This document shows positions 3,430 through 52,050 of a stretch of 64,000 bases of DNA, piece by piece. Every line of letters begins with the position of its first letter. Position 1 is the first letter of the stretch. The translations under genes were made by a program, and so were the position numbers. The notes beneath the pieces were generated by a model. That model did not search any database, was not told the DNA's origin, and saw only the letters and a program-made list of their open reading frames with translations. This stretch comes from Opisthorchis felineus (taxonomy: Eukaryota > Platyhelminthes > Trematoda > Opisthorchiida > Opisthorchiidae), in the NCBI GenBank assembly GCA_004794785.1, contig SJOL01008829.1, positions 322,881 through 386,880 of the forward strand, written 5' to 3'.

Positions 3430-3735
3430 TCAAATCGTATTGCGATATCTCGAATATTATACCAACTGAAGTGTGAGGCGGCCTGGTGCAGCGCATATCG
3501 TTTCTTAAAAAACATCATAAATGAGGGATTAAGCGGGGTTCCAGGTGATTCTCCCGCAAAACCAAACTGGTTTGCAAATGAGTGCATTTCGCTAATTTCG
3601 TGCAATTTGGGTTCACTTAGAACATGAGGTTGACAAAACTCGGGAACTGCGCCTACCTGATGAACCTTGAGAAGGGCGAAACCGGTCGTGGGCTGTCGAC
3701 GATTTTTAAGCAACCTTATGAGTGGTTGATTACGC
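3430..3735 (-). repeat. Repeat family 1, nearly complete monomer (about 300 bp)
   Basis: On the minus strand this copy runs from accactcataaggttgct through cagcccacgaccggtttcgc, catcaggtaggcgca and aaattgcacgaaattag to the cgcctcacacttcagttgg segment, ending near 3436 at atatcgcaatac. The order matches the copy at 19892-20192 over most of its length. An incidental minus-strand frame gives HEISEMHSFANQFGFAGE, close to [18 protein letters not shown] of the 20.1-kb copy. From memory, such peptides recur in hypothetical proteins of Clonorchis/Opisthorchis, which suggests a high-copy family; I could not check this. The frame is not regarded as a gene. Confidence 0.75.
3651..3693 (+). ncRNA. Hammerhead ribozyme motif, repeat family 1 copy A
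   Basis: Parts in order: helix I 5' strand GCCTAC (3651-3656); core CTGATGA (3657-3663); helix II ACCTTGAGAAGGGC (3664-3677); GAAA (3678-3681); CCGGTC (3682-3687); helix I 3' strand GTGGGC (3688-3693). Helix I pairs along all six positions, one being a G-T wobble. Helix II forms four pairs closed by a GAGA loop, but its first pair (10.1-11.1) is an A-C mismatch. Helix III would be the palindrome ACCGGT, too short for a stable monomer, as in hammerheads that work as dimers. Predicted cleavage is after C3687. The core is intact; activity is untested and the mismatch may weaken it. It lies antisense to the repeat's incidental reading frame. Confidence 0.65.
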
Positions 3736-6700: not shown

Positions 6701-9700
6701 TCTTGAAAACGATACTGAGGCCGCAAAAAATGCAAAGACTGGACTCTGTGGTTGAGGCTGTCTTATACTGAATACAAAATAAGAAAATTTGGAATCAAAA
6801 CTAGCAGCTCCAGGCTACTCACAAAAACTGTCTATTCAAATTTGACGGTAAATTAGACAACCGAAAAGGGATAGAAACTGCATGAAAAATTCCTCCTGCG
6901 GTTTTATCGACCCAAGTTTATGAGACAGTTTTCGTCCATGCTGACCACTTCAGTAATATCTCGGATAGACATGGGACACGACAACAACCCGCAATTTGTA
7001 ACACCTCACCTGACCAGCATGGACAGGTTTTAATCAGCACAGCATATGAGCCTGTTAGAATGTGATACAAGTCCTGGTTTTATTCAACAACCTGTGGTCA
7101 GTTTAGTTTGTGGTACGGAAACACAAAACCGCTAGGTCAGGTCCACTTCAGCGGACGACCGTAAATAAACCATGCAAACTTTAGCAAACCAAATTTATCT
7201 GGGAAGCATTCTGTCCTGTGAAGATCCAGCCAAATGAGATATAAAAATATACAGACTCTCCCCCATCACCAAAAACATGCAAAATGAACATGCGCGACCG
7301 AACTAAGGCATCGAGTTTTTTGAAGACTTAAAAGATAGGTTTTTTATCACAATGCACCCTGTAGAAAAGTTCCAGTTTTTATGCCAGTCCTCACCTAACT
7401 TAAGGCAACATATAGTCATACTATGACGCACTCAAAATAATAACGATAGTTATTCAAGGCAGAAAATGCATTTTGCCGGTGAGCAGAAAGGCAGTACTTT
7501 CAAAAGGTACCGGCAAGAAAGATTGAAAAACATGAAAATGTCATCTACCGGAAGCATGCCGACTTGGATGCTGTCTAGTCGCTTACAAATGGGAGCATTT
7601 GCTCGCATTCAGACAGGCTAGCAACCAGCGCACAGTAGCAACGAACTCAACTTTGGGGACAGATGTAGGCTTATTTGTGTATAATTCTGAAAATAAGACA
7701 GCAGTATCAAAAGGGTCGGAAAGAATTCAGTAACCAGGAGTAGTTGAATAACTAGATGTTTTGCTACCAACGTCAAAATCTACCAGTTCATGTTGGCGCC
7801 CAGATATTGTTTTGCTCCGATGGTTGGTGATATGACTAAAACAAAATACGTCGAACATGAAATGCAACGGAAGCAGTAGTAATAAAATGAAATCAGCGGA
7901 ACGTCTTTCATGGTACAATTGATTTTTTTACATTTTGCAAGACATGACATTGTGCTGCTCATCTGTTTGCTCGACCAATGTGCAGATGAACATTAAACCA
8001 CTAGGCTGAGCAGTAGACCTGTTGTGATCATTCCCTGCATACTATTTACAAAGGGAATCTCATCGTACTTCATCGGTGATGCAACCTCAGCACACCATAT
8101 GGGTTTTAACTAAAGCAACTTCTGCACCCGAGGTGCAGCAGAAGCCCATTTTTTCTTTCAAGCTCAGCGAAAGGATGAGGGTATTCCCACCTTCCTGGGA
8201 ATACTTTATCAGCCTTTCAACGCAAGTGCTCAGTGTTCAGTTATATTGTAGACTTCAAGGTCCCTAACTGGGTTTAAACTCTTCCGTTCCTACAGTCACC
8301 TGTTGAGCACATCCTCCATTCAAGGCCTCTTCCTTTTTTCAACTGCGCCCAGCACCCTACTGAACTGCTATTGTTTAAAACTGCCCAAAATTTAAGAGGC
8401 TTTGCTGAACCCATGTAGAGATTGGCGCGCAGCCTCTAATTACCTTGGACATTAGTAGTTGCTCGTAATAGTGGGCTTAGGAAAATAACTATCCGGTGTC
8501 CACCAAAATGGCTTTATCAGTCCTTCAGGAATCGGTCTATCTTGTGTACGACCCATCCGCAGGCAGGGCTAATTAGCACCCTGTTTTCTGGTGGCGCGCA
8601 GAAAAAACAAACAAAGAGCGTTTGCGTTCAAGACAGAATGTGTCTTTAGTCAAGTGTGCTTCCTTAAATTGCATCGCTGCAGGTAATGCTAGAGATTTTC
8701 TTTCACCAACCAAACCATGACATCATGAAATGCTAAGGAAAATTTATCACATGCGTTACCCGGCAAACGGGGCAAGCACGACAGCAGTTTAACTGCTCCG
8801 CGAATGTATCAAGAAACCCATCAAAATACGCCATCCCCTGCAAAACATGGATAGCTTTGAATATTTTGTGTTAGTGTGGTGATGTTAATCACATTATTAG
8901 CAATTACAATAACCTCTAGTATCAGGGACTGTGGTGATGGTAATAAGCTTTAAGTTGTAAAAAGCATCCAGGAAGATTTTTTAGTCAAGTTTAAGGCACC
9001 TGAAAGCAAAAACTACATAGCACAAAACAAGGATTCAGGCTACTCATCCAGAGAGTGGATGGAAAATTAAGGGTTTAGTTGGTTTTGTCTCACACAGTGA
9101 ACAAAAAATAAATCCAATAAAAGACGTTCGTAACATTCGAGCAGACCAAAAGGTCCAAAACGAACAATATATTCAAAGAGAGAACTCACTAAGACCGACT
9201 ACAAAAGCCCGGAATCATCTGTGCAAAACAGGCGCTGTTGGTGTGATTTATGGCTAACGCGCATTCGTCAGGAAGCATAATCCGGTTTTTTATTGGTCCA
9301 GAATGATATGGTTTTGATTCGTGCGTTCCTTTTCAGACAAGCTTATCATCATTGAGAATGGATGGCCTTGTCCGCATGATTTCTTTCTCCATCCTGTTTT
9401 ATTCCGCATCCACAGGCTTTGAAATTAAAAATATTGCATGTCAAACGAAAGTTCACCGGTCAGGACACTTTTCAGGTGTGATTGAATAAAGGCTTTTTTC
9501 CACTGGATTTTGAAAGCTGAAGTCTTGCTAATGTTGGATATACAAGTTAACAACTGCTTACGGTGTTGCATCACGTTAAAAATTCGAGTTGAATTCCCAC
9601 CTTGTTTTTCTCTTCTCCTGTAAACATTTCCAAGTTTTTTAATTTTGCATAGAATAGGCGCCTTTCAACTTCAAAGTAATTGACTATGAAAGCCCATTAA

Positions 9701-19877: not shown

Positions 19878-20206
19878 CTAACGAAAACTAGCGAAATACA
19901 CTCATTTGCAAACAACTTTGGTTTCGCGAGAGACTTACCTGGAATCCAGCTGAATGGCGATAGATGTATATTCGTAATGCACTACTCATAAGGTTGCTGA
20001 AAATTCTTTGACAGCCCACGACCGGTTTCGCTCTTCTTGGAGCTCATCAGGTAGGCGCAATCCCCGAGTTTCCTTCAACCTTATGTTCTACATTGAGACC
20101 AAATTGCACGAAATTAGTGAAATACACTCATTTGCAAACAAATTTGGTTTTGCGAGAGATTTACCTGGAACCCAGCTGAATCCCTCATTTGACTAACGAA
20201 AACTAG
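19878..20206 (+). repeat. 301-bp insertion of repeat family 1 with 14-bp target-site duplication
   Basis: The exact 14-mer CTAACGAAAACTAG occurs at 19878-19891 and 20193-20206 and bounds the repeat exactly, as expected of a target-site duplication. The 301 bp between hold about one and a half tandem units: cgaaatacactcatttgcaaac with cagctgaat (19892-19957), a shortened linker with cataaggttgctg, the hammerhead on the minus strand (20014-20056), then a second cactcatttgcaaac with cagctgaatccctcattt. Compared with 3430-3735, the first unit lacks about 110 bp. Tandem organisation around a hammerhead is what dimeric transcripts of retrozymes or Penelope-like terminal repeats would leave. No protein gene lies within. 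Confidence 0.75.
20014..20056 (-). ncRNA. Hammerhead ribozyme motif, repeat family 1 copy B (all core bases intact)
   Basis: Read 5' to 3' on the minus strand: helix I 5' strand GCCTAC (20056-20051), core CTGATGA (20050-20044), helix II GCTC-CAAGAA-GAGC (20043-20030), GAAA (20029-20026), CCGGTC (20025-20020), helix I 3' strand GTGGGC (20019-20014). Helix I has six pairs with one wobble and helix II four Watson-Crick pairs. Every base of the classical core is present, including G10.1-C11.1 and a C at position 17. Predicted cleavage is between 20020 and 20019. Helix III is only the self-complementary ACCGGT, so two copies would pair in trans or in a tandem transcript. Activity is inferred, not shown. 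Confidence 0.75.
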
Positions 20207-37944: not shown

Positions 37945-38087
37945 NNNNNNNNNNNNNNNNNNNNNNNNNNNNNNNNNNNNNNNNNNNNNNNNNNNNNNNN
38001 NNNNNNNNNNNNNNNNNNNNNNNNNNNNNNNNNNNNNNNNNNNNNNNNNNNNNNNNNNNNNNNNNNNNNNNNNNNNNNNNNNNNNNN
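37945..38087. other. Assembly gap (143 N)
   Basis: A run of 143 undetermined bases, directly followed by a TA tract. The simple repeat probably stopped assembly, so the true distance between flanks is unknown. Confidence 0.98.

Positions 38088-38147
<60 letters not shown>
38088..38147. repeat. (TA)30 microsatellite
   Basis: Sixty bases of pure alternating TA adjoin the gap. The tract likely extends into the N run. Confidence 0.95.
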
Positions 38148-43870: not shown

Positions 43871-44073
43871 CCTTATCGTGTCACGTGATTCCAGTTTTTG
43901 GTTTTACTGAGGACAAAGCGTAAATGCCAACAGAACCCAGCAAACGTTAGGAGAAACACAATGGGATTAGAGCATTTAGCGGTTTGCATCAATACCAACA
44001 TTACATTTTTCTAGAGGAAAATGTTGGTAGCTCAGGTAGCGTAGATGGTCGTTGGCTTGTTCACTGAGCTGGG

Positions 44074-44130
44074 CAATTTGATTGCAAACGTTTCATCACC
44101 AATCGAGGTGACATCATCAGTGCGTTATTG
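44074..44130 (-). ncRNA. Hammerhead-like motif, repeat family 2
   Basis: On the minus strand: CTGATGA (44120-44114), TG, helix II TCACC-TCGATT-GGTGA (44111-44096... ends at 44096), T, GAAA (44094-44091), then CGTT (44090-44087). Helix III would be the palindrome ACGT. Helix I has GCA/TGC next to the core, an internal loop, and CAAT/ATTG beyond it. Differences from the classical fold: an extra base at each foot of helix II, and T rather than C at the cleavage site (a permitted NUH triplet, but usually slower). The copy therefore looks weakened. The second arm at 44178 lacks the core. Confidence 0.5.
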
Positions 44131-44160
44131 GGGAGCGTAGTGGTGCGTGGCGGTGGGTTG

Positions 44161-44178
44161 GTGGTTGTGCACAACCAC
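44161..44178. repeat. 18-bp perfect palindrome
   Basis: GTGGTTGTGCACAACCAC lies just inside the right arm of the inverted dimer, at the point where its homology to the left arm ends. It may be a junction product of the inverted insertion or a small hairpin. Confidence 0.7.
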
Positions 44179-44232
44179 GTTTGCAATCAAATTGCCCAGC
44201 TCAGCGAACAAGCCAACGACCATTACATTTTT

Positions 44233-51100: not shown

Positions 51101-51939
51101 TGATGACGACCTGCTGCTTATAAGTAAAAGAACCCTGGATTGTGGGAGTAAGGCCTCTAATAAGTTCGGAGATATACGAAGTTATTTGATTCCTCAGGTC
51201 TCAACGTGCTGCTCACTCTGAAAATGTGCCACTGGTTTTTTTAAAGATGCCGACCAAATTTTCGTCAATATTTGCCTAAGTTATTTGCCCCCGGCTTGAA
51301 TAAACGGAGTCCCTTAGAAGAGGGATTAAGGAGGCGATTTCCTTGGACCTAGGTAAATGAACCGCAGTTAAATTACCAGATGCTCAGGGACGTTTCATAC
51401 GCAACTCGTCAGCTGCCTCTCCCAAATGGTGTCAAAATCAAACGTCCGAAGGTCTTGTCTATTATTGTACACTGGAAGAAGTGCGAGCGAACACTGCGCT
51501 AACACAACGTCTGGTTACAAAGAGTTATTAAAATTGGCTGGAAAATTGGAATGATAAAGATGGAAGATAATGTAACACAATGCAAATAAAAAGCACTCGT
51601 CGTACAATGAAAGAGACAACTGATGGTTTACAAAACGGTCGAGCGGTGTGCTCCAACTAAGGAGATGACTAATTCAGGTTTCTTGTTTTATCAGGTTAAC
51701 GCTGAGTTGCCAACAATTTTGATCCCGTCTATATAGTTTAGTTGTTTATGACGTCAAAAGCGTACACCATCCACTACTCATTAGGGTGCAGAAAACCTTT
51801 TGACCGCCAATGAACTAGTTCGTCCTTGAAACCTATCAATTAGGCGTAGTTCCTTGCTTTTATTATGATGTATTTGAAACTCAGTTGTGCGAATCTCGCA
51901 TAAAACACTTATTTACGCACTATTCGGTCTTAAAGAGAG
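48148..51939. other. No supported gene
   Basis: A ten-base A run is near 49551. The + strand is open for 125 codons at 50844-51221; its YFDDDLLLISKR string is discussed among rejected items. Confidence 0.4.
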
Positions 51940-52050
51940 ACTCAGTTGAATCCAGATGAATCTCTCGGATCCAGTTGAGCCTCGCTGCAAGACCAAATTG
52001 GTTTTCAAATGACTGTATTTCGTGTACAGTATTCAGTTCCAAGGACCGCG
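51940..52050 (-). repeat. Repeat family 1 fragment
   Basis: Minus-strand reading shows cgaaatacagtcatttgaaaa, ccaatttggtcttgc and ggattcaactgag in the same order as cgaaatacactcatttgcaaac, ttggttttgcgagag and ccagctgaatc of the 20.1-kb copy. No hammerhead core remains upstream, although ctgatggg near 52117 (minus) may be its relic. Confidence 0.5.

Follow-up and report, generated by a model that had tools for sequence, protein, structure and literature searches.

A type I hammerhead with a palindromic helix III in a dispersed family of animal retrozymes

Animal retrozymes carry type I hammerhead ribozymes in tandem repeats and are found as linear and circular RNAs of 170–400 nt, with a GC content below 50% and direct repeats of more than 4 bp (PMC7229834). 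According to the same account, repeats of the retrozyme type occur in platyhelminths, among others, and in the axolotl the hammerheads act as dimers, one helix III being reduced to a single pair plus a palindromic tetraloop. Penelope-like elements (PLEs) have been named a strong candidate for retrozyme mobilisation (PMC7229834). A purified PLE protein of an anole is reported to cleave both strands of the DNA, to extend each of them and to initiate at two sites within the RNA, with the intervening stretch making up the "tail" of genomic copies (PMC11167929).

The element described here lies in a window of 64,000 nucleotides, which is the whole stretch of DNA analysed. With a probability of roughly 0.85, we read it as a single copy of an animal retrozyme, a non-autonomous non-LTR retrotransposon, with the cycle proposed below and an enzyme that is probably that of a PLE. 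This explanation rests on sequence, a structure accompanied by covariation, copy number, one tandem array, terminal direct repeats and insertion geometry. An earlier, sequence-only reading, which had seen a complete minimal hammerhead in a dispersed repeat, was partly supported. The relevant features of the window are the following.

19878–19891 (+): left target-site duplication, CTAACGAAAACTAG, of a perfect 14-bp direct repeat
19892–20192 (−): whole inserted element of 301 bp, consisting of an end part, the hammerhead block, a shortened middle part and the end part again, from copy comparison
19991–20081 (−): long helix I of 22 pairs surrounding the core and interrupted by internal loops, from alignments of copies
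20014–20056 (−): core of a type I hammerhead ribozyme, from the sequence and a match to RF02275 (E 7.1e-7, under the cut-off)
20021–20026 (−): helix III, ACCGGU, palindromic and loopless, from the sequence and a domain-swapped dimer fold
20193–20206 (+): right target-site duplication, CTAACGAAAACTAG, of the same perfect 14-bp direct repeat
3437–3734 (+): second copy, with a core complete except for an A–C mismatch at the foot of helix II, from an RF02275 match and copy comparison
51769–52022 (both strands): degraded copy whose two 3′ ends point outward, with the hammerhead block on the minus and the end part on the plus strand, from covariance model R2 (25.6 bits, E 4.6e-4)
1201–1256 (−): small, degraded piece of a hammerhead block, 77% over 57 bases, absent from the stricter list
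43999–44232: Penelope-like remnant with inverted 3′ ends outward, a hammerhead at 44120 (−), a 34-nt one-sided tail and 12-bp direct repeats, CATTACATTTTT

The hammerhead and the element around it

On the minus strand, helix I is formed by GCCUAC (20056–20051) and GUGGGC (20019–20014), CUGAUGA occupies 20050–20044 and GAA 20029–20027, and helix II pairs GCUC (20043–20040) with GAGC (20033–20030) across a CAAGAA loop. With CUGAUGA and GAAA, helices I and II and H at position 17 all in place, the presence of a real type I hammerhead at 20014–20056 (−) was confirmed; its cleavage is a prediction, with C17 at 20020 and the cut between 20020 and 20019. The sequence-only reading had placed the cleavage at 20019, in agreement with this, and its claim that every type I core base is present on the minus strand was borne out, C17 included. 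Its statement that all helices are present was correct for helices I and II; helix III is loopless, so that the statement holds only when two copies are considered together.

That reading had also named a covariance search with Rfam models as a check. At gathering cut-offs, this search returned no matches in the window, whereas the top match by E-value, Hammerhead_HH9 (RF02275) at 20001–20068 (−), was significant at 7.1e-7 with 40.6 bits against a cut-off of 52. A second RF02275 match, at 3640–3706 (+), was not significant (18.9 bits, E 6.5). The pattern CTGATGA-N14-GAAACCGGTC was found exactly at two places in the window (3657+ and 20020−) and at three in all when up to three mismatches were allowed, against a chance expectation of 0.13; three matches were reached in one of 100 shuffles.

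In alignments of 11 and 39 copies, the core is embedded in an elongated helix I, which is interrupted by internal loops and comprises 22 pairs, next to four in helix II. The 39 copies were aligned by model R2, while the 11-copy alignment was made separately, with no model fitting. Over the 39 copies, 87.9% of cells pair, compared with 31–52% in slid controls, and both-sided changes occur at 15 of 26 pairs (7.2 in shuffles, with 0 of 500 equally high), in an alignment that leans towards the structure because it was fitted to R2. The unfitted alignment shows four such pairs against 2.1, a value equalled in 20 of 500 shuffles. The most variable pair is found in helix II, where C–G is replaced by U–A in 6 of the 39 copies. 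The window motif is a type I hammerhead in which helix I is extended and loops 1 and 2 are present, and the label "minimal" given earlier had to be dropped in view of the 22 pairs, the internal loops and the covariation. A minimal PLE hammerhead was rejected on the same grounds, and because the PLEs found in this genome have a different motif. Accordingly, of the known arrangement invoked by the sequence-only reading, the kinship with retrozymes stood and the assignment to PLE-type hammerheads fell.

Helix III has six bases and no loop and therefore cannot close within one molecule, so that the window hammerhead can probably work only as a dimer, as had already been proposed from the six-base palindrome. 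When two molecules of the 49-nt core of the window copy were folded, the minimum was a domain-swapped double hammerhead (−35.3 vs 2 × −15.6 kcal/mol), and the same held for the 92-nt stem (−63.5 vs −59.4 kcal/mol for two monomers). This preference is slight because longer and related pieces fold otherwise: at 105 nt, the free dimer of the window copy prefers two separate hairpins (−66.0), with helix III in trans at about 0.5%, and the dimer fold of a 50-nt piece of the 3.65-kb copy was not a double hammerhead. When a single molecule is folded, part of the core pairs with helix III. For a 61-nt hammerhead stretch, the minimum fold of one molecule was other than the hammerhead; the fold energy was unremarkable (z −0.15) and was left out of the evidence.

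Comparison of the window copies with loci L001 and L003–L008 gave the order of the unit as hammerhead block, middle part, end part of ~80 bp and next hammerhead block. The unit measures ~307 bp, has a GC content of 47%, with 43% across the examined stretches of the genome, and is strongly self-paired. A natural unit taken from cut site to cut site at L047 (307 nt, GC 46.6%) folded as a circle at −100 kcal/mol (z −4.5), as against −78.0 (sd 4.9) in 60 dinucleotide shuffles; this circular fold leaves the core of the hammerhead blocked. The window insertion amounts to ~1.2 units, with one hammerhead, the end part twice and the middle partly missing. A Pfam scan gave no match for 10 of 19 listed open reading frames of the window. 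Elsewhere in the window, a run of N at 37945–38087, either a gap in the assembly or withheld sequence, adjoins a (TA)30 repeat at 38088–38147.

Copy number and state of the copies

The pattern CTGATGA-N14-GAAACCGGTCGTGG occurs 2090 times in forward and 2146 times in reverse orientation, 4236 in all, in the 630,098,494 bases of the genome, while the backwards control pattern yielded 0 matches in either. A chance match was rejected on this comparison, and the dispersed, high-copy nature of the repeat asserted by the sequence-only reading was upheld. Among the matches listed, 11 follow each other on C14 with a spacing of exactly 307 bp; there are also a few pairs, separated by ~290–305 bp on the same strand or by ~200 bp on opposite strands. 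On C14, 11.5 units of 307 bp form an array at 131600–135700 (L047), next to an assembly gap, and the 10 complete units that run from one of its hammerheads to the next are identical. Most of the copies that were listed or sampled are dispersed.

The total size of the family was estimated by sampling, with 20 random 10-kb stretches scanned with R2; L036 was dropped, as it overlaps L017, leaving 19 stretches or 190 kb. These contained 14 matches of at least 44 bits, corresponding very roughly to 46,000 in the genome, an estimate that may be too high because the sampled contigs were already known to hold a hammerhead match. By the criteria set, 0 of these 14 copies were intact, as against 13 of all 39 aligned copies; most of these 13 had come from an Rfam search and were thereby preselected. 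The earlier expectation of many self-cleaving RNAs has to be qualified: the exact core pattern is kept in 4236 copies, but in none of the random copies is the hammerhead intact. The latter, together with a window copy that departs from the array unit in its helix II and has a shortened middle, would suit a family of fossils, in which the ribozyme no longer works or matters. We consider this unlikely in the face of the many exact cores, the ten identical array units, the perfect 14-bp repeat around the window copy and the paired changes in helix II.

The Rfam type I model, with 74 of 115,518 candidates scored, reported 21 matches genome-wide, of which 16 were over the cut-off; some of these, at L002, L009 and L010, belong to other hammerhead families. 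The relatives at L003, L006, L007, L013 and L014 reach RF00163, while the L047 array units do not: the family consists of dimer-type hammerheads whose intact array units stay under the curated Rfam cut-offs.

Several side observations were made. A second hammerhead family, with a helix III of ACUCGAGU or near it, is found at L002:1470–1560, L010:1490–1580 (−) and L020:1480–1550; upstream of the L002 hammerhead lies a B-box-like stretch, which we take to be reminiscent of the Sm-alpha SINE of schistosomes. Other type I hammerhead-like motifs occur once each, at L009:1491–1535, which passes the Rfam type I cut-off, and at L018:1542–1578. Near-equal retrozyme copies at L011:1443–1733 and 7264–7554, 5821 bp apart, apparently represent one duplicated stretch. 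L038 holds an animal-type phosphofructokinase exon, from which the genome is taken to be that of an animal; similar repeats, the genome size and the GC content of 43% suggest that it may be a fluke. A search of the assembly for COX1 found none.

Insertion geometry and the mobilising enzyme

Direct repeats of at least 8 bp were found near the ends of 9 of 34 insertions, compared with 1.26% of position pairs drawn at random from the window; clusters lacking a hammerhead block of more than 60 bases were skipped in this list, in which 16 of the 34 insertions have parts on both strands. For the geometry count, 37 insertions were mapped onto the natural unit, leaving out L036 and L047 (the ruler) and skipping clusters of fewer than 60 aligned bases. 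The two L011 copies entered the insertion counts as two. Outer 3′ ends numbered 51 and outer 5′ ends 23, and 14 of the 37 insertions are head to head with both 3′ ends outward, while none has both 5′ ends outward. Within two 20-nt windows (31–50 and 199–218) fell 39 of the 51 3′ ends, against a mean of 15 and a maximum of 19 in 60 uniform controls; the 5′ ends spread as in the uniform control (9 of 23 vs a mean of 8.3). These two internal 3′-end sites read ATGAGTAGTGCATTACG and ATGAGTGTATTTCG and are evidently similar. Double-ended insertions had one end of each site class in 12 of 13 cases (permutation mean 6.7, P 0.005), with classes set after the data had been seen and L040 excluded, being cut by the locus end. 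Some insertion ends are blurred by decay, and ends beyond the hammerhead are favoured because many loci were chosen for holding one. Taken together, this geometry suggests PLE-type priming on both target strands.

It also bears on a different origin, namely a LINE-mobilised SINE resembling Sm-alpha, in which the hammerhead would be carried along as a passenger. Direct repeats of 8–14 bp and LINE-like RVT_1 pieces at L023 and L025 would be expected of such an element, and schistosome hammerheads do lie in tRNA-derived SINEs (PMC2770079). Yet the exact 307-bp tandem array, the two internal 3′ sites and the paired outward 3′ ends are at odds with it, and no tRNA-like part was seen by eye in the unit; a SINE is rather improbable. 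ARAGORN, applied to L002 only, returned 0 genes.

A search of the genome for GIY-YIG domains, with 150 of 553 candidates scored, gave six matches, including L041, which looks to us like a cellular GIY-YIG gene. L043, L044 and L046 are PLE-like, with GIY-YIG passing the cut-off in the three pieces tested. The RVT_1 match of L044 was just under its cut-off (26.5 vs 29.6 bits), and there was no Pfam match for the reverse transcriptase piece of L043 and no PDB match for that of L044; otherwise, we take these three loci to encode reverse transcriptases on the strength of sequence motifs. All three carry a different hammerhead, CTGATGATGT..., which is located downstream of the open reading frame and was also found at L024 and at window 44120 (−). 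Both ends can be seen in two PLE insertions, at L044 and at 44.0–44.2 kb of the window; these have inverted 3′ ends outward, 12-bp direct repeats (at 473/2231 in L044 and at 43999/44221 in the window) and, on one side only, a tail of ~29–34 nt.

Such elements might suggest that the repeat is simply the pseudo-LTR of an autonomous PLE, with no separate retrozyme: GIY-YIG PLEs are present, bear hammerheads and share the insertion geometry. This is very improbable, however, given that the hammerhead of L043, L044 and L046 is another one, placed downstream of the open reading frame, and that the 307-bp array unit contains no coding sequence between its hammerheads and no RT-GIY-YIG frame.

For the retrozyme reading, the following cycle is proposed. 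Copies would be transcribed, and two hammerheads, in the same or in separate transcripts, would pair via ACCGGU, swap their helix I strands and cut after C17 to free monomers of ~307 nt, which a host ligase may close to circles. Either the circle or a tandem transcript would then be copied into staggered DNA breaks by a reverse transcriptase, probably that of a PLE, which would initiate on both strands of the target and at two sites within the RNA. That a PLE-type enzyme moves the retrozymes is an inference from the likeness in insertion geometry; no evident sequence is shared between the 3′ end of the PLEs and the start sites of the retrozymes, and the other reverse transcriptases of the genome, at L023 and L025, count against a PLE enzyme. 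Retrozyme insertions resemble the behaviour of the anole PLE, but their sites are further apart (PMC11167929).

More generally, we tentatively propose, at somewhat less than even odds, that animal retrozymes are inserted by Penelope-like machinery, which would use two internal RNA start sites, ATGAGT-N0-3-GYATTWCG, open both target strands and make one cDNA on each, usually one per site, joined head to head. If true, this genome would supply the missing link that joins hammerhead retrozymes to Penelope elements, which have long been suspected of mobilising them. The 37 insertions match both the behaviour of a PLE protein in vitro (PMC11167929) and the two PLE insertions found here; owing to this match, the question of which enzyme returns hammerhead retrozymes to animal DNA can be tested by counting insertions.

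Comparison with described systems

A literature search covering Clonorchis and flatworms, with most subscription papers outside its coverage, found no earlier description of this retrozyme family. The Sm-alpha SINE of Schistosoma is likewise a high-copy, dispersed element with a type I hammerhead, but has a tRNA-derived part (PMC2770079, PMC4918200), none being recognised by eye in the window family. PLE hammerheads share with the latter a short or palindromic helix III, the expected dimeric action and, in this genome, the same insertion geometry. They differ in being minimal, described as lacking helix III or the loop contacts (PMC7761336), and in adjoining an RT-GIY-YIG open reading frame.

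The closest likeness is to the metazoan non-LTR retrozymes (Cervera and de la Pena 2020, PMC7229834), with which the family has in common a type I hammerhead, repeats of 150–450 bp, tandem copies and paired RNA. A GC content of 46.6% and a z of −4.5, both from one natural unit, and direct repeats of more than 4 bp, reaching 14 bp at the window copy, are likewise in keeping with them. Helix III of the axolotl HHR_Amex1 is similarly short, with one pair plus a palindromic tetraloop (PMC7229834), whereas here the palindrome ACCGGU makes up all of helix III, in an apparent invertebrate. The family further differs in having its own sequence, in being largely dispersed among the copies examined and in its two-site, 3′-outward insertion geometry, which is without counterpart in the available portions of the PMC7229834 account. 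The element appears to represent a new family among animal non-LTR retrozymes, with a well-preserved copy in the window.
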